Shown here: positions 6,401-26,984 of the stretch, one piece after another | Layout of the letters: each line of letters opens with the position of its first letter | Position numbering within the stretch: position 1 is the first letter of the stretch | Assembly: GCA_943704415.1 (NCBI GenBank) | Contig: CALSCO010000226.1 | Span: forward strand, 1 to 26,984 | Reading direction: 5' to 3' | Length of the DNA: 26,984 nucleotides | Origin: Parvularia atlantis | Lineage: Eukaryota > Opisthokonta > Rotosphaerida | The notes under the pieces: generated by a model | What the model was told of the DNA's origin: nothing | What the model saw: the letters and a program-made list of their open reading frames with translations, nothing else | Databases searched by the model: none | Translations under genes and position numbers: made by a program

Positions 6401-9400
6401 TTCAGAAAAAGCCGGCGCAACAGCCGCCCGCGCACCCAAAGAGCGTGAGCTTGACGCTGGACGTGGTCGCCGTAAACTGCGTGAGAAGGGCGTACTCGAT
6501 CTTGTTGACGAGTTGCTGTCATGCGCGCGCGCACGCGTGAGCGGCACAACAGACCGCGATGCTGCGACGCACTCGCCGTCCGTTCAGGTACCTGAACAGG
6601 ACCATGCCCGTGACGTTGACGAGCATGAACAGCTGGTCGTCCGCCGCGCCGTACGGCAGGCCCTCGGTTTGCTGCGCGGCCGTGGGCTGGTGCGAGGCGC
6701 GTCGTCACGCACACGCACCCGCACGGCAAACGTGTGCCCAAAGTACAGCGGCCACGACTCGGCCAGCACGATCATTCGCCGGAAGGCCGTCTCGGCATGC
6801 GAGTCCTCGACCAGGAAGCGGTCGTACGTCAACGTGAAGTCGGCGATCCACGTCTGCGGCGGTGATGAGCCGCCGTGCACATCGCGCTGGTGGTGCGCGC
6901 ACCTTGGTGTCCTTGAGCGTAGCGACGTGTGGCGCGAGGACGCACTCGAGCGACTTGGAGTCGCTGTGCACGCGGGCGATCAGCGTGTGTGCGCTGGCAG
7001 GGCAGACGGGACGCGCACAAATTGAGCGTGTGGATCTGCTCGCGCGCGCCGCCGTTGCCCAGGAACCATAGCACGGCCACGCTGAGCGCGTCCTCGATCG
7101 AGACCTCGACCGCGCCCGCAAACACGTCATTGTTGATCTGGTCAGCCACGAAGCGGTTGATCTCGTCCACGTCGCGGCGGTGGTCGGGCGCGAGCGTGTG
7201 GCGGCTGCAGGGGAGCGGACACTCAGGCACCATGCACGCGGCGCGACGGCATGCGCGCGCACCGGAAGATCAGCACGCATTTCGCGACTTTCTCCTCCAG
7301 CAGGCTGATCGTGTCCATCACGTGGGCCTTGCTCGCCACGACGCGCTCTGCCCGCGGCGATCAGCCGGAAGCACGCTCGCACACACAGAGCAGCGCATGC
7401 GCACCGTTAACCGTGATACCGCAGCCCTCGTCGATCGGCAGGCCGCTGAACGGGGCGAGCACGAGCGTGAGCTCGTCGCCAAGCACCTGCGCGCACGCGT
7501 CAGCCTCGGCTGGCCTCACGGCGCGCTCATGGACGCACGAGGGGGTCCAGCGCGAGCGTCGTCGGTCCGGGCAGCACGTCGACCATGACCGCACCGCGCG
7601 CGGCCGCTGCCTCGTACTCGAGCGAGCACGGCGGGCTGCGTGCACGGGCTCCGTCCATCAGCACTTGCACGCTCATCCACGGACATCACGCACCGCTTGC
7701 GCGCGCCGGTCTGCTTGACGCGCAGAATGAGGCGCTGGCAGTGCGACGCGAAGCCGTCCGGCCCGCGCTTGACAATGTACACGAGCAGGTAGCTGCGCGC
7801 GGGTTTCGTCAGCAGCGGCCGGCGATCGAGGGCCGCTGTCACGCCGCACGGGAACAGCGCGTCGGACGGCGACATGCACCCGAGCAGGAGTGCGAGCAGG
7901 TACCAGCCGGCCCAGACAGACTCCCTGTGCACAACGGCGCGCGTCAGTCGCGCGTATGCCGCTTGCGCGGCCGCGACGCACTTGGACCCGTTCATGGTCG
8001 TGTGCCGGACGAGCTGGCAGAATAGCTCGTCGGTCAGGCGTGCCGAGCCGCGGCACATGTCCCACAGCAGGTCGACCTGCTCCTTGCGCTTTGCCTGCGC
8101 CGGGCGGGTCAGCGCAGAGCACGCGGCACTCACACGCGATGCCGTGCCCGCATCTCGACCCCGGGCTCGAGCTTCAGCTTTTTGCCGTCGTCCTTGAGCA
8201 CGCACGCGCGCACAAACGCGCGGATGCACCCGTCGATCGACACAGCGTTGGCGTCCTCGGGCACGCTCAGTTTGACGTGCAGCCCGGCGGTGACGGGCTC
8301 GTCGCTGTACTGCAAGGACGCGCCCGGGCGGAGGTAGAGCGAGGCGTACTTGGCGAAGGCGTACTGCGTGGCCAGGTCGACGCCCTCGGTGCTGCCGTCG
8401 GTGAGCGCGGCCGACTGCGGCGGCGGCAGGTCGTAGGCGGCGATGTAGTCGTACTGCTCGTTGTTGAGCTCCTGGGCGAGGCCGATGATGGCGAAGCCCG
8501 GGTTGTCGAGCTGAGCCTGGCGCCGCTTCTCCTCCATCAGGCGCACTTGCTCCTCGGCCTCCTTGCGCCGGCGCTCCTCGAGCGCCTCCTCCTCCTTGAG
8601 CCGCGCCTTACGCTCCTCTTCCTCGCGCATGAAGCGGTCGTAGCCCTCTTTCTTGTGAGCTAGCGCCTGACGGCAGACGCGCGCGCGCAGGGCCGCGTTG
8701 ACGAGCTGCAGCGCGAGGTGGAAGATCTGATAGCGCTCGCGTGCGCGCCAGCCGCGGACGATCTTTTGGATCGCGACGGCAGCGCGGCGCATGCGGCGGT
8801 AGAGGCGCACGGCGCGCGCGGCGCGGAAGTTCTTCTGGAAGATGACCGTGGCCTCGCGCCTGACCTTGAAGCGCGCGCGCGCGACGACCATCTTGCCAAA
8901 GTACGCGAGGCGCAACGCGGCGGTGGCGAGGATGTTGAAGCGGCGGGCCTCGAGCACGCGCTTGGGGCCGATGCGCATGAAGATCTGCACCCCGCCGCAC
9001 GCGGGTGAGTGGCCCGCGGCGACGTGCGCGAGAGCGCAGCGGACGCACCATCGTCTTGCCAAGCTGGTAGTCGTTGCGGTCGAGTTTGAGCACGTCGGTG
9101 ATGATCTCGCAACGGCGGCGCAGCTCGTCCTTGCTGCCGTGCTGGACCTTGATCGGGAAGTAGCGCGCGTAGAACTCGTCGTAGGTCATGCGGAGCGAGT
9201 AGCCGAGCGAGCGGATCTTGACGGTCTCGATCATGCCCGTGTAGCGCAGCTGCGTCAGGACGATCTCGCGCTCAAACGTGTTGGGCGCCTTGACGACGTT
9301 GGGCTTGATACACCGGATGAAGTACGGGTCGGTGGCCTCGAGCCGGCTCATGAGCAGGTTGAGCGAGTCCTTGAACTGGCCACCGACGGTCTGCTTGGCC

Positions 9401-12399
9401 TGGCCGCGCTTGAGCGTGACGCGCTGGTTGCTGAGCTCGCGGTCGCGCTCGAACCAGCGTCGGACCATGTCCATCTGCGGCGATGTCAGAAGATGAGGGC
9501 GCCGCACGGGCACGCCGCACTTTTGAGTTGACAAAAAGCTCGATCACAAAGTCGTTCAGCAGGTCCATGTTCTTCTCAAGGAAGCTGGAGGCGTTGTACT
9601 GGACCTGCGGCGCGTGCGGCGTCAGGGGTGTCACGCAGGTGCGACTGCGGGCACGCCGCGCCTTGGCTGCGTAGTGCGAGATGGTGAAGTTGCGCGACTT
9701 GCCCTGCGCGACGGCATACATTGCGTTGCTCACGTGGTTGTCGTTGAACTTGTTCATGAGCGTGTCGTCCGTGGCCGACGGGAAGAATGACTCTGCGGCT
9801 CGCGGTCAGAGTGCGCGCGGGGGCTGTGTGGGCGAGCGACGCGCCCTCGTCGAGCAGGTTCATCAGCGACAGCTTCTTGCGGTAGAGCAGCTGCAGGCAG
9901 TCCTCGTTGTCGGTGTACTGGATGACGTCCCACTGGATGCCCTCGCGCTTGTACTCCTGCAGCGCGCATCGCCGCGTGAGCTGGCGCGCGTGCACAGGGT
10001 CGTCCGACGGCACCTCCTGCTCCATCTTGAAGATGTGGTTGTTGAAGTACGACTGCAGCGTCTCGTTGGCCATGTTGATGCAGAACTGCTCGAAGCCGTT
10101 TGTCTGCAACGACCCCGCGTGAGCGACACGCGGTACACGGCGCGCGCGGCGCACGGCGCAGGCGCACCTCCATGACCTCGAAGCCAAAGATGTCGAGAAT
10201 GCCGACCGAGTTCATGTCGGCGCCGAGGTCGTCGCTCGCCTCCTCCTCCTCCTCCAGCTTGGACCGCTTGAGCGCCATGGCCGTGTTGATTGCCTCGACG
10301 ATGTGCCGGAACAGGCGGCCGTAGACGGCCTTGGCGATCGAGTCGCGCGTGGCCTCGGCCTGCGCGGTGGTGCTGTCTCGCTGGATCGTGTCCTTGCCCG
10401 TCTGCGCACGAGGGCGTCAGCGTCGGCCTGCCGTGCCGCACGCTACGCGCCTTGAACGACTGCAGCGTGATGGCCCGAACGAGCTCGGGGGCACTCAGCC
10501 GGAGCAGCGCGGCGGTCACCTCAATCTCTGCGCGCACTGGTCAGGCGTGCATCGAGGGGGGTGAGCGTGCGCACCGCTGGTGAGGATCACGGCGCTCTTC
10601 TGCGTGTTCCTCGTGTCGGCGTCGATCGGGATGTTGCCAACGTGCAGCACAAACGCGAGCACCTGGAAGATCTCGAGTTGCTGCTGCGGGCTGAAGCCGA
10701 CGACGCCCAGGGCAAACTGCGCGAGGCGTGTGAGCTGCTGCGGCGGTGATGCGCACGCAGCAACAGCACCTTGAGCTCCTTGTACGTCTTAGCGTCGTCG
10801 ATGCCTACGATCGGCTTTGTGTTGCCGTGCTTGAGGTAGTGGAAGCCCTCGGCGTTCTTGAGCTTGAGCAGCACTGTGCAGACAGTGCGTGAATGCGGCG
10901 CTGCGGCGGCACCGTAGAGCACGCACGCTTCTCCTCGGGCGCGGCGCCGGCCAGCAGCGCGTAAAAGACGTGATAGTTGCGATCCTTGGCGTGCTGGCGG
11001 ACGATGCGCGACTGGCACCGCGCGCACGTGAGCAGCTTGCGTTATGCATGGCAACTGCGCGCACCTTTTCGAGCAGGTCTGTTTCGCGGCGAAGCGGCGC
11101 AACGGCGCGGTTAGTGGCGACGCTTGCGCGCAAGGCGAGCGGAGAGGAAGCGGTAGCAGCGGTCTTGCCCCGGGTAGTAGCCGACGCCGCGGTGGCTTTG
11201 CGGCGCCGGCGTATCTTGGCAGCGAGGCGTTCACGGAGAGAGGAAAACGGAGACAGAGTGAGATCTTGGAAGCCGGTATCGGCGGAGCGCAATCGCTCGA
11301 CCTGACGGTACCGCCTTCTATGGCTTCCGTGCCCGCACCCACCCGCAGCGTCCGCACCACCCACAGTGCCCACCCGCCCGTGCACACGCACATTCGGTGA
11401 CCTTGCCGCCGACGATCTTGCCGGCGCTGCTGAAGAAGATCTCGACATACTTGCCCTGCGCGGCGGCGCGGTCCTGGCTCAGCGGCGCACGGCATACACG
11501 CCGCGAACGCCACGCACAAAGCGGCTCGAGTTGTTGTTATTGGCCGTGGTCGCGTTGCCAAACGCCTCGAGCAGCGGCGACGACTCGAGCAGGAACTGCT
11601 CCACGGGCGAGTGCTCGCCTGACTGGAACGTGAGGTAGTTGATGATCAGCTTGGTCGACTCGGTCTTGCCCGCGCCAGACTCGCCGCTGGCACGCCGCAC
11701 ACACGGTCGGCGCGCTGATGCGGCAGACGACGGGCGCTCGCGCACCTGATGAGGATGCTCTTGTGCTGGCTCTCGTGCGAGAGCGTGCGGTAGGCGTCGT
11801 CGGCGATGGCGAAGATGTGCGGCGGCAGGTTACCGAGCTTGCTGCAGCGGCGGCGCGCCCCGTTCCGCCGTGAGCGCGATCGTGACGCAGAAGCGCAGCA
11901 CCGCCCGCACCTGTTGGAATACTTGGCGACCATGTCGGGCCCATAGAGCGGCACGGGCTTGTACGGATTGACGGCGATAAGGATCGAGCCCGTGAACGTC
12001 TGCGCCGTCGTGTGAGCGCCGCGAACCGCAGCGCAGACGGCCGAGGGCGCACGTAGATGTTGTCGGCCTTGTGGCGTACGCGCAGGTTGCGCAGCAGCGA
12101 GCCCTCAAACAGCTCCGACAGATTGATCATGTCGTCGATGCCGCGCTGCGACGCGTCGTCCATCGGGCGGCACACGTCCGGGTGCCGGCGCAGGTGCATC
12201 GTCTCGCCCGCGCGCTCGCCGCCGAGCACGGTCACGTCGACGGCGTCGCCGGCGGCCGCGTCGACAGCGGCGTCGATCCAGCCGAGCTTGTCGTGCTTGA
12301 CCCAGACGAGCGCGCCCGCCTTGTACTGTCGTTGCACGAGGGCCGTGAGCACGAGAGAGAGGGCGCAAGAGGGGGGGGGGCGCGGCGCACGTCCGACAT
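3401..12399 (-). CDS. Myosin VII-like heavy chain (motor, IQ, helix, MyTH4-FERM-SH3-MyTH4-FERM)
   Basis: Actin-based motor of the MyTH4-FERM group, with a membrane- and adhesion-binding tail. The start ATG at 12399-12397 has an in-frame TGA directly before it; exon 1 encodes only MSD. The motor has P-loop GESGAGKT (11662-11685), switch [22 protein letters not shown], switch II DIFGFE, DEESFFP and CIKPN. An acidic insert (EEEEEASDD) precedes switch II. One clear IQ motif ([17 protein letters not shown]) and weaker ones lie near 8720-8990. A charged helix follows (8480-8660). The first MyTH4 lies about 8400-7680, FERM about 7640-6290, SH3 ([21 protein letters not shown]) about 6230-5990, second MyTH4 ([42 protein letters not shown]) about 5760-4900, and a final FERM ends TGA at 3401. 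About 44 introns leave roughly 2,150 codons, close to animal MYO7A. Four introns use GC donors. The domain order fits class VII; other SH3-bearing MyTH4-FERM classes are possible. Confidence 0.95.
11079..11391 (-). other. Outlier 313-nt intron of the myosin gene, next to a 14-nt exon
   Basis: Nearly all introns here are 40 to 90 nt, but the one after GGKVTE in the myosin motor is 313 nt (donor GTGCGTGT at 11391, acceptor AACAG ending at 11079). It is followed by a 14-nt exon (11065-11078) and an ordinary intron. The spliced product reads KVTEYLLEKSRIVRQ, matching the conserved myosin YLLEKSR region in phase. The middle of the intron is richer in A and T than its surroundings. I see no convincing C/D box snoRNA motif and no recognisable protein in it. 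Confidence 0.65.
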
Positions 12400-12501
12400 T
12401 CACGACAACAGAGCGCGGGCACGGCTGATGCCTGGCGCGGACTGTGTACCACCCGTTGAAACTTGATTACTCAGAGTCGCTGTACGCCAGAACCAACAAT
12501 A
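12400..12501. promoter_or_regulatory. Shared divergent upstream region, myosin and MGRN1-like gene
   Basis: There are 102 bp between the two divergent start codons, so both promoters and both 5' leaders must fit here. The right half is relatively A/T-rich (around 12458-12501) compared with the surrounding coding DNA. I see no TATA box or other named element. Confidence 0.5.
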
Positions 12502-23204: not shown

Positions 23205-26200
23205 TCACACGCGCTGCGGTGCGGCAGGCGTCGTCTGCGCCGTCCACATCGTGTCGACCACCTGTGCACGCATGGGCGGTGTGCGCGTCAGTGCGAGCGC
23301 GGGCCACAGCACGCAGAGGACGCACTTGCAGCGCGTGCAGCAGGAGCGCCTGCCGCCGCGGCTCGATCGCCGGCAGCGACGTGATGCGCGCCGCCAGCTC
23401 CTTGCGCGAGCCGAGGCGCACGAGCAGCACCGCAAGGCCCCGCAGCAGCGCCGACGGGTACTGTGCGCATGCGCGCACGTGTGGTCAATGCAACGTGCCT
23501 GCGCGCCGTGCCGCGCACCACGACGGCTGTCGTCGTCTCGTCCGGGCCAAACAGGTGCGCGAGAACGTCGAGCGCGCGGTCCGTGTCGTGGTCGTCCAGG
23601 TGCATCTGCAGCAGCGCCACCCACGCGCGCCGCGAGAAGCGCTCGGGCGACGCCGCGCACAGCGAGTAGCACAAGCGTGCCTCGTTCTGCGTGCCCGCGC
23701 CGGTAAGCCCGCAGCCCCATATGCACAACGCGCGCCGCACACCTTCTTGTGCAGGCGCAGGCACAGGTCACCGAGCAGCCGCAGCTCGGCCGGCGAAAAG
23801 TTCATCGTCTGCAGCGGCGGCTGGTCGTCATTGAAGATCGACGTGAACAGGCGCAGGTCCTCAAACAGGCACAGGAACAGCTCCGTCAGCCATGGCGCGC
23901 TCAGCCGCTTGGCCCCGTCGGCGCCGATCGTCGGTGGCAGCACGGGCGATGGCGGGCCCTGGTCGGTCGACGGGCGCCGCACGAGCTGTAGGTTGCTCTC
24001 CCTGCCCAGCCTCCGTCAGCCACGTCCCCATTAACAAACGGCCGCACCGCTTGATCCGGCTGTCTTTGCGTGTCAGCCGACCCATCGGCAGCCGCGCGTT
24101 CTCGCCAGAGTCGCGCCGCGCCAGCAGCCGCACGGCCGGAGGCGCTTCGTCGCCGGACGCGGACGACGCCGCGCGGCGCCGCATCTCGGGCGACGTCTGC
24201 AGGTCCTCTGCCCGGGTCTCGCACGTCAAGACAGCAAGCGCGGGTGCACGCAACGCAGCGCACCGAGCTTGCGCGGCGCCGTGCACTCGGTCGTGCTCGC
24301 CGACTCGGCCGTGATCACGTCCTCGGCCTTGACGATGCCAGCGGCCACGAGCGCTGGCAGCAGCGGCGCCGACATGCCGAGCGACGAGCTAGCGGCTCAG
24401 ACGTCAGGGCGAGCAGCGTCCGGTAGCGCAGACACGCACCGCCGCAGCGGCTTCTCTTCAAACGCGAGCGACGGCCGCCGCCCCTGCAGCGTCGCGCCGG
24501 CCATGAGCGGCGTGCTCGCGTGCAGCACGTTGGCGGCGGCGGGCGGGCGGTCGAGCGTGACCTGCGAGCACTGGTCAAGCTGCCGCGGCAATAAGCAGAG
24601 CGGACCGGCCACGCACGCTGCCCCGCGGCGACGATGCGTCGTCCACGGCCGACTGCGGCTGCGACATGTCGTCTGCGCACACCGTCGTCACGCACCACCC
24701 CCTGCGCCACGCACGGTCCGAGCGCACCGCCCTCCATCCAGAACGTCTCGCTGCGCGCTTGCAGCAGCCGCGCCCACGACACCTGCTCGCACATCTTGGC
24801 CAGGAGCGCGTACGCTGCAACGCGCGCGTGAGCAACACGTGCACACGCGCAAGCAGTCATCGTCGCCGCACCGCGCTTGAATGTGCCCTCGAGGTCCTGC
24901 GCCGGCAGCGCAGCCAGGCGCTCGTCCACCTCGTCGTCCTCTTCGTCCTCCTCGTACTCGAGGCGGATGTTGCGCCACTCGGCCGGGTCGCCGGGCGCCG
25001 GGATCGCGTCCTGCGTGCACGCCGCAAGCTCAGCGCGTGTACACGAGCGGCTCGCACGGCGCACCGGCAGCGGGCGGATCATCGGGCACGAGTTGAGCGC
25101 GCACAGGGCCTGGTGCGGCTTGTCCTGCGCCAGCCACGCCGTCGCCAGGGCCAGCCACGCGCGCGGCTCAGTCGGCGCGCGCTCAACGGCGGCCTGGGCG
25201 ACCTTGGTGGTAAAGTCGGCGTTGTCCTGCGTCTACTGCGTCAGCGCCACACTACCCGCGCGCGCTGCCTCCGCGCACCTTGAGCAGCAGGTACTCGGCC
25301 TGGATGACGAGCGCGGCAAAGTCGAGCGCGGTCCAGGCGCTGGCCGTGAGGGAGTGGTGAAGGATCTGGACGCCGCGTGCCTCGTCGTCTGCGCGCGCGC
25401 ACGGGGGTCAGCGGCGACACCACCGATGCGGCGACGCACCCGTCTTGAGGTAGCTGTAGGCCTGCCACGTGCGGAATGCCGTGTTCTCCGACGCGACTGC
25501 GGGCGAACACGCGTGTGCCGCGTCACGCCGCGGAAGTCTGCGACTGCGACGGGTCAAAAAACGCACGCTGTTCGAAAAAGTTGCGCGCGATGTCCATCCG
25601 ATTGTAGCTCTCAAAGTACTCGAGCAGCTCACTGGGCGACGCTCAGCCGCCACGTGGCGCACTGCGGGCCTCCTCACACGCACCGGACGAGCAGGTTGTT
25701 GGTCACGGTCGCCTGCTTGGTGTAGTCGTCCGGGCCGAGGTCGACGCCCTTGTCGATCAGTGCCTGCACGGCGTCGAGAAACTTGCGCTCGTCCGCGCGG
25801 TTCGCAAACACGGGCAGGCGCCTGGCGCGGTGCCGTCAGCCTCAGTGTAGCCGAAGCCCGGCGCGGAGGACGCACCGCAGCCCAGCGACGCTCTGCTTCT
25901 TGCGGCGCAGGGCGCGCAGCACGCCCGAGACGTAGATCTCCTGCCACGCGGCGTCCCCGACCGGCACGCTGACGGCGACAACGTTCAGCACGCGTGCACC
26001 TTGCACGCACACCGCGCAGCGCACCGCGCGTTGTGCTCGTCCAACACAAAGGCCGTGACGCCGCCGGGGATCTGGAACTCGACGTAGACGTCCTCCTGGC
26101 GGAACGCGTTCCACGTGCAGTACAGGCCGCCGGCGACGGACCATTTGGTGCGGCTCGAGAACCACCCGGACGATCCCTCCTGCGCAACCATTGCAGTTCA

Positions 26201-26762
26201 GCACGGCGCGGTGCCTCACGTGCGGCACACGCGCCTCGCGCGAGAGGATCGTCGTGAGCGAGGTCAGGTACGCGGCGACGCCGGCGAGGGACGCCGTGTT
26301 GAGCCCAAGCACGTGATGGTACGTGCCCTGCCGCCGCACGCCCTTCACCGTCCCGCCTCCTCCGCCTCCTCCGCGCAGCGTCTTCTCGGAGCCGGCTGCA
26401 TGTGCGGCGCGTGAGCACGTTGACGACGTCTCCCGTCGCACGCACACGGCGCGAGCACGGCGGGCACGCTGCTGCTGCTGCTGCTGCCGCCGCCGCCGCC
26501 GGCCGATGGCGACGTGCCCGCGCCCACGAGCGACGCCGACGAGCCGCTGGCGCCGGCGCCGCTCGACGTCGTGCTAAGCACGATGTGGCACAGATCGGGC
26601 GGGCCGATGCCGCGCTCGTCGGCTGCGGCGCGCGTGGCGTCAGCGCCCGGCGATTGCGCACGAGGCAGGAGAGGGCGGGCGCAGCAGCGCACCGAGCGCC
26701 GTCTGCCGCAGGCGCAGCGCCTCGCCCAGCACGCGCTCGCCGAGCTCCCCGAACGCCGCCAT
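23205..26762 (-). CDS. ChAPs family protein (Chs5/Arf1-binding, exomer-type cargo adaptor)
   Basis: In fungi, ChAPs (Chs6, Bud7, Bch1, Bch2) bind Chs5 and Arf1 at the trans-Golgi and carry selected membrane proteins to the cell surface. The ATG at 26762 has an in-frame TAG two codons upstream. About 20 exons give some 820 residues. Recognisable family segments are GPPDLCHIVLST, GTYHHVLGLNTASLAGVAAYLTSL, WQEIYVSGVLRALRRKKQS, ELLEYFESYNRMDIARNFFEQ and a TPR-like block ERAPTEPRAWLALATAWLAQDKPHQALCALNSCPM. An acidic stretch (EYEEDEEDDEVDE) and AYALLAKMCEQVSWARLLQARSETFWME follow, then LTELFLCLFEDLRLFTSIFNDD and the C-terminal helices to TGA at 23205. One GC donor intron lies at 26180-26234. Assignment rests on remembered family motifs. 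Confidence 0.75.
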
Positions 26763-26810
26763 CGGCTATGTACCGCTCCACTTGCGATCGGATGCTGCAC
26801 TAGATCCGTA

Positions 26811-26929
26811 CAAAAGTGCCTTTTCAAAACTTAACTGAACTCCTTGTGTCACTGTGGAGCCGAGTCGTCCTTGGTGGCACCTTTCTCCGGGCCCGAGGGG
26901 TTTCCCCCGCATCACGAGCAGTGCTCGTG
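26811..26929 (-). ncRNA. Candidate omega-RNA / element-end region with serial hairpins
   Basis: On the minus strand, starting within the last codons of the nuclease, five small perfect inverted repeats follow each other: 26913-26929 (8-bp arms, 1-nt loop), 26897-26908 (GGGG GAAA CCCC, a GNRA-type loop), 26888-26895 (CGGGCCCG), 26873-26881 (GGTG C CACC) and 26812-26824 (AAAAG GCA CTTTT reading). In this family the guide RNA scaffold overlaps the 3' end of the gene and runs to the transposon right end. The A/T-rich part near 26811-26845 is unlike the flanking host DNA and could be that end. This is inference from position and foldability only. Confidence 0.35.
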
Positions 26930-26984
26930 GTTCTTGAGATAGACGTTCCGTGCGCCGTTGATGTCGCGTCCCACTGCAGTGCCG
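26912..26984 (-). CDS. TnpB/Fanzor-type nuclease, C-terminal end only (continues past the window)
   Basis: The last 23 codons read AVGRDINGARNVYLKNHEHCS and stop TGA at 26914-26912. RD(I/V)N(G/A)ARN is the third RuvC motif of TnpB, Cas12-like OrfB and the eukaryotic and giant-virus Fanzor proteins. The Asp (codon 26965-26963) is the third catalytic acidic residue. This family consists of RNA-guided DNA nucleases carried by IS200/IS605/IS607-like transposons and their eukaryotic relatives. Only the tail is visible, so completeness, element type and whether it is active cannot be judged. Its stop lies 150 bp from the start of the ChAPs gene. Confidence 0.72.
   Translation of the reverse strand, partial: GTAVGRDINGARNVYLKNHEHCS

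Follow-up and report, generated by a model that had tools for sequence, protein, structure and literature searches.

Features at the right edge of the window

The window, that is the whole stretch of 26,984 bases analysed here, is contig C49 in its entirety, from a genome of 16.25 Mb in 616 contigs. C49 stops at 26984, inside a copy of a repeated element. Read on the minus strand, host DNA is taken to begin at 26806, and the element together with a CG shared with the flank makes up the final 178 bases of the window. The following features are present at this edge.

26809..26984, minus strand: assembled part of the element copy, comprising its right end; the contig terminates within the element
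26911..26984, minus strand: 3' end of a Fanzor (TnpB-like) reading frame by translation, ...GTAVGRDINGARNVYLKNHEHCS and stop, with the RuvC III motif
26913..26929, minus strand: hairpin 1, CACGAGC-ACT-GCTCGTG, 7 bp with loop ACT, overlapping the stop TGA (26914-26912); predicted start of a guide (omega/reRNA) scaffold
26897..26908, minus strand: G-rich/C-rich hairpin GGGGG-AAA-CCCC with AAA between the arms, from the letters and the comparison of copies
26812..26884, minus strand: long closing helix of AAAGGTGCC (26884-26876) with GGCACTTTT (26820-26812) enclosing inner stems; putative core of the scaffold, close to the right end
26807..26808, minus strand: putative crossover dinucleotide CG, common to both borders, deduced from other copies; the window copy lacks the usual end motif
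26760..26762, minus strand: ATG of the adjoining host open reading frame, 44 bases past the CG

The sequence-only reading had described a RuvC III motif followed by a stop, small inverted repeats and an A/T-rich block, and all of these were found. The protein end is translated from 26983-26911, with the RuvC III aspartate codon at 26965-26963. The inverted repeat spanning the stop lies at 26929-26913 and the second at 26908-26897, followed by the A/T-rich block at about 26834-26809. The closing pairing of 26884-26876 with 26820-26812 is additional to those named in that reading. Only 23 residues of the Fanzor are visible, without RuvC I, RuvC II or the zinc ribbon, as the contig ends there, and these residues alone matched no Pfam family. 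The element had been taken to end at 26811. A sharp end does exist, but it was placed slightly further on: the element reaches 26809, and the shared CG occupies 26808-26807.

The window copy departs from the family in two places. Most of the hairpin CCTGAGG-CTG-CCTCGGG, which in most copies follows the GGGGG-AAA-CCCC hairpin, is missing, and the copy ends in the variant ...TTTTGTA-CG-GATC, where other copies read GTAAGAGGCG in place of GTA-CG. With one hairpin and a few end bases missing, this copy is probably dead. Rfam gave nothing in the window at gathering scores, and a sigma-70 promoter and terminator scan of 26750-26984 also gave nothing, the sigma-70 model not being a eukaryotic test.

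On the host side, a ChAPs Pfam match is situated at 24318-25082 on the minus strand, further on from the ATG at 26762, and the two are inferred to belong to one gene. Pieces of a myosin heavy chain are found at 8133-12403 (minus strand), with a clear myosin head and weak Myosin_N and IQ matches below the cut-offs. A search of the genome for chlorophyll-binding proteins gave no match, and the host is apparently non-photosynthetic.

The repeat family and its proteins

The last 223 bases of the window were used as query for the right end, and 40 places on 40 contigs were scored out of 58 candidates. The 39 other copies are 82-93% identical to the window copy. Since the same DNA is present at 40 scored places in the genome, the right end is not a chance pattern. 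The sharp homology boundary called for by the sequence-only reading is present: the copies are alike up to ...TTTTGTAAGAGGCG and unrelated DNA lies beyond. Of 30 right-end loci (L010-L039), 25 have a contig end no more than 500 bases away, and the break of the window within its own copy is explained by this. The left-end region of the family begins T(G/A)GAGACCTTTTCGCGC and gave 42 matches on 40 contigs, a few of them starting inside the region.

The genome carries dozens of copies, most of them shortened. Five copies possess both ends: C339 (523 bp), C141 (813 bp), C62 (502 bp), C67 (555 bp) and C346 (514 bp). All are deletion derivatives with internal loss, 502-813 bp in length. Inspected by eye over 14 bases per border, none of the five shows inverted ends or target duplication, and only CG is shared with the flank. 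Beside the C67 copy lies a Prp28-like frame; the best 120 of its 5911 matches, from 7993 candidates scored, are mainly fungal with 43-53% identity, the first being labelled beetle. Taken with the myosin and ChAPs matches in the window, this points tentatively to a host among the early-branching fungi or their relatives.

A recurrent junction was observed among the short copies. The match starts at query base 44 or 45 in 24 of the 40 right-end matches. Sixteen loci with such a start were examined; L025 has no upstream DNA and L039 has 7 bases, and in the 14 with enough upstream DNA the N-terminal sequence of a recombinase is joined to the tail. The repetition of one junction at many unrelated sites indicates that the short form moved as such, and hence it was probably mobilised in trans. 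A sequence of about 180 bp interrupts three Fanzor element copies, at L043:5097-5279 (C533), at about L086:1807-1900 (C574, reversed) and at about L138:620-815 (C334). Judged by shared translations, it is probably a second, small nested mobile element.

No whole Fanzor was found in the assembly, nor an intact TnpA; the relative P0005, of 389 residues, has 21 matches there, each of them partial. The sequence-only reading had called for RuvC I, RuvC II and a zinc ribbon upstream. RuvC I, the alternative RuvC II glutamate and the parts of the ribbon are seen in other copies. All the motif parts of the C4 zinc ribbon were seen, and the frame is lost between its two halves in all 13 distinct copies having the first half, so that in none does one frame join the first CxxC to the second CxxC and the RD. 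With no intact Fanzor or TnpA in the assembly and the ribbon frame lost in 13/13, activity is not claimed. Where the zinc ribbon is shifted, an alternative frame in many copies (L006, L013, L014 and others) is open past the tail and ends in ...GATKDDSAPQ; it may be a product of chance or a shared altered protein.

The remaining motifs were read from individual copies. RuvC I is DPGVRTF in C533 and C574 and DPGIRTF in C141. The alternative RuvC II glutamate, six residues ahead of the zinc ribbon, is seen in VDESYTSKTCGWCG of C339 and TEEYTSKTCGACG of C26, and copies carry RD at RuvC III. A DPG motif together with a glutamate at this place is given as a Fanzor fingerprint in PMC10711439. A serine recombinase of IS607 type is represented by pieces that lie between the same element ends, with PF00239 matched at 4 places, in the C440 frame (L050) with 1.9e-10, and a MerR-like helix-turn-helix (RKRYGVSNTTLQRWHR) is read upstream of the resolvase part, in C440 in a different frame from it. 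The recombinase is known from fragments only; the relative P0132 carries both PF12728 and PF00239. Three recombinase frames (L050:1312-1704, P0131 and P0132) depart at one common point (AHSSEV...), where P0141 continues AHSSEIDTVYIAH; this would be accounted for by an intron or by a deletion that the three have in common.

The DPG and glutamate fingerprints along with the IS607-type recombinase pieces point to a Fanzor2 of the IS607 kind and not to a Fanzor1 in some other transposon. The comparison with other copies thus bears out the Fanzor identity proposed earlier and refines it. Fanzor1s, and a few Fanzor2s, do live in cut-and-paste, Helitron or similar eukaryotic transposons (PMC10711439, PMC3627910). 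Capture of a Fanzor1 or other Fanzor by such a transposon is nevertheless very improbable here, given the serine-recombinase pieces between the same ends and the borders of the 5 complete copies, where the terminal inverted repeats and target-site duplication of the Fanzor1 type were not seen by eye. The serine recombinase was the one transposase type seen among the copies, IS200/IS605 elements being marked by a Y1 (HUH) transposase. The window feature is very probably the right end of an IS607-type transposon copy carrying a gene for a Fanzor2, a relative of CRISPR nucleases, in a high-GC eukaryote.

Other Fanzor fragments are found in C26 (L046:1642-2271, minus strand), C566 (L040:5404-5988) and C334 (L138:3-698, an N-terminal part). 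The C26 fragment has 48% identity to P0005 over 154 columns, its RuvC I reads DLG (DLGVRTF) and its frame is broken. The hairpin tail of C566 is distinct and finishes in GTAGCG followed by T, and both C26 and C566 seem to represent families of their own.

A protein search with the Fanzor region gave 8 relatives. The relative P0003, from a metagenome contig of 862 bases, matches 53% of the query at 82% identity and ends in the same NHEHCS. Its C-terminus, GRDINGARNILIKNHEHCS, is near-identical to that of the window copy, and its zinc ribbon is complete (PF07282, 2.8e-16). P0003 is an open frame in which the recombinase helix-turn-helix is fused to the C-terminal half of the Fanzor, without the RuvC I aspartate. 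Such a frame may have arisen by a chance deletion, or it may encode an RNA-binding regulator without catalytic activity. No relatives of P0003 were found in viral contigs. The closest solved structure to P0005 is 'TnpB-like protein L79' (9b0l, E 3.4e-26), which we take to be a mimivirus protein.

A tree was constructed from 28 rows and 185 columns, using 17 of the 41 DPG-type loci and leaving out L116 and P0009. C533 and C574 form a starred clade with P0003 (100/98). This clade stands with other metagenome proteins, the viral contig L096 and the 'uncultured bacterium' contig L097, and apart from the 16 bacterial rows, on deeper branches which are unstarred (bootstrap 81-87, SH-aLRT 69-88). DPG-type TnpB relatives do occur in bacteria, at 41 loci, as a bacterial contaminant or a remnant of a bacterial TnpB would have it. 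Such an origin can scarcely be credited, as the element is on at least 40 contigs, lies next to eukaryotic genes (in the window those for myosin and ChAPs, beside the C67 copy that for the Prp28 helicase) and, at unstarred support, falls outside the 16 bacterial rows. Among these 41 loci (L097-L137), 27 are titled Thiomargarita, Parabeggiatoa or Thioploca, the giant sulfur bacteria, and 1 names a cyanobacterium; several of the translations show degenerate zinc ribbons. The pro-Fanzors reported in PMC10711439 are mostly cyanobacterial.

Insertion sites and the folded tail

Flanks were compared at 27 left and 25 right ends, all of which matched a fixed anchor with few mismatches allowed and had 40 or more flanking bases. 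ACCG precedes the element at 23 of the 27 left borders (0.5% expected; p 1e-49) and is absent from 4. The background was 262 ACCG in 53,969 window bases, both strands, or about 1 per 206 bases. At the right, T follows CG in 19 of 25 ends, against 19% expected from the CpGs of the window (p 1e-9). When indels are allowed, T is present in 22 and absent in 9 of 31 right ends. The usual end motif is present in 31 of 34 distinct right regions and absent from 3, the window's included. In the two-ended copies the left border is ACCG and the right border CG without exception (5/5), and a T comes after the CG in 2/5. No empty site was found for three flanks searched, each single-copy in the genome.

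These borders suggest crossover at the CG of ACCG^T as the simplest reading, with CG as the crossover dinucleotide and CCG as the target motif. If the left ACCG and the right CG were themselves part of the element, the crossover would lie elsewhere, for example at GA/AG inside GAGACC and AAGAGG. The presence of ACCG at 23/27 left ends would agree with such borders, as would the T in only 2/5 two-ended copies and the AAGAGGCG seen in 24 of the 25 right ends, a count that is not independent because the search anchor included AAGAGGCG. The base before GAGACC, however, varies (G 14, A 11, T 1 and C 1 in 27 ends), and four left ends keep GAGACC while their flanks differ. A GA/AG crossover would also need a target of 11-12 bases, with about 12 sites in 16 Mb by a hand estimate against more than 25 insertions, and the preference for T after CG is as expected if the last base of ACCGT belongs to the target. 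We consider these other borders quite unlikely. Crossover at GG, the dinucleotide of bacterial IS607, was considered separately and rejected: with the variable base before GAGACC, 13 of the 27 left ends are not GG.

From the same flanks, (A)CCG is predicted as the target-adjacent motif (TAM) for RNA-guided cleavage. The flank motif was fixed before its comparison with the TAM of NlovFz2, the Fanzor2 of Naegleria lovaniensis, and the two agree.

The folding of the tail was compared with shuffled sequences. A structured tail overlapping the stop, as the sequence-only reading had proposed, is seen across the copies, but the stretch from 26984 to 26800 folded alone is no better than its shuffles (z -0.72, 41/200 as good). 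The shorter stretch 26939-26805, folded alone, gave z -2.89 with 1/60 shuffles as good. The 147-nt tail of L006, a fuller copy, gave z -2.33 (3/200), and that of a second family, C566, gave z -3.21 (0/200). Over 27 aligned tails, with 60 shuffles each, z ranged from -0.3 to -3.3. Six of the 7 pairs of hairpin 1 are formed in 27/27 rows and the seventh in 26/27. This alignment omits 7 of the 33 distinct tails: L003, L007, L009, L016 and L019 lack one anchor, L002 has an extended G run and the end of L038 is cut off. L009 is the window copy, which was entered as the window reference instead.

The layout and the literature favour the tail as a plausible guide RNA. It might instead be a right end which only binds the recombinase, its hairpins forming no guide RNA. 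This was counted as favoured by the modest fold scores and by RNAalifold, where 0 of 33 pairs of the 27-row alignment covary, the copies being too alike for covariation to inform. Single hairpins are missing from several copies, and L007, L032 and L052 among them still carry normal ends, which also agrees with a recombinase-binding role. Against it, the layout matches Fanzor2 and IS607 reRNAs that run into the flank, as published in PMC10711439 and PMC10432273, and a different family (C566) folds more strongly at the same place. A purely recombinase-binding tail is on balance unlikely, though it keeps some weight.

For an IS607-type element with a guide RNA, the following course may be proposed. 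The recombinase would excise the element as a circle, which would be inserted at the CG of ACCG^T sites without target-site duplication. Transcription from the end of the Fanzor gene, across the folded right end and on into the host flank, would supply the guide RNA, and Fanzor would cut guide-matched sites carrying (A)CCG, for example the just-emptied donor site. Repair of the cut donor site from a filled copy would restore the element. The shortened copies would be spread in trans by an intact copy, presumed to be unassembled or lost.

A TATAAAAG box is present in 16 of the 32 left ends obtained by looser matching, and this hints at a promoter for the recombinase. The derivatives keep the left end and the folded right end, and half of the left ends have this box. 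On this basis, the derivatives of about 500 bp could be pictured as scattered guide-RNA genes, each supplying a Fanzor encoded elsewhere with a guide read from its own insertion site, a swarm of small elements being kept by one shared nuclease. We regard this idea as speculative, with a small chance of being right.

Comparison with known systems

The Fanzor2 elements of IS607 type known from eukaryotes and giant viruses (ACa, CRv and ISvMimi; PMC3627910) likewise combine a serine recombinase and a Fanzor2 in one element, and are described there without terminal inverted repeats or target-site duplication. The present family differs from them in its many short internal-deletion derivatives, the lack of an intact copy in the assembly and a strong preference for ACCG^T. 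Bacterial IS607 and ISXfa1 are similar in their serine transposase, in crossover between matching dinucleotides and in a reRNA which includes a fixed flanking base (PMC4058570, PMC10711439). Their crossover is at GG with little target specificity, and the assay motif of ISXfa1 is GGG, whereas here it is inferred to be at CG in ACCG^T. TE-N2_CMe and CMe-1A of Cyanidioschyzon offer a parallel to the derivatives, a short many-copy element sharing the 5' part of a Fanzor element (PMC3627910); they concern Fanzor1 and an unknown transposon class, in contrast to the Fanzor2/IS607 kind seen here.

For NlovFz2, the measured TAM 5'-CCG is the motif found left of the elements here (PMC10432273). NlovFz2 is active and expressed while only fragments are present in this genome, and the likeness noted here is that of the motif.

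By title and opening abstract, with subscription journals largely outside the coverage, no treatment of short Fanzor2/IS607 derivatives in a eukaryote was found. The element type and non-autonomous relatives of Fanzor elements are already known, and what is added here is an informative set of insertions. With many Fanzor2 insertions in one genome, the flanks reveal, with no experiment, which target the recombinase uses and which TAM the nuclease probably has, and the (A)CCG so derived matches the TAM found by measurement for another Fanzor2. The many derivatives provide a natural case on how Fanzor-type nucleases affect the spread of their non-autonomous relatives.
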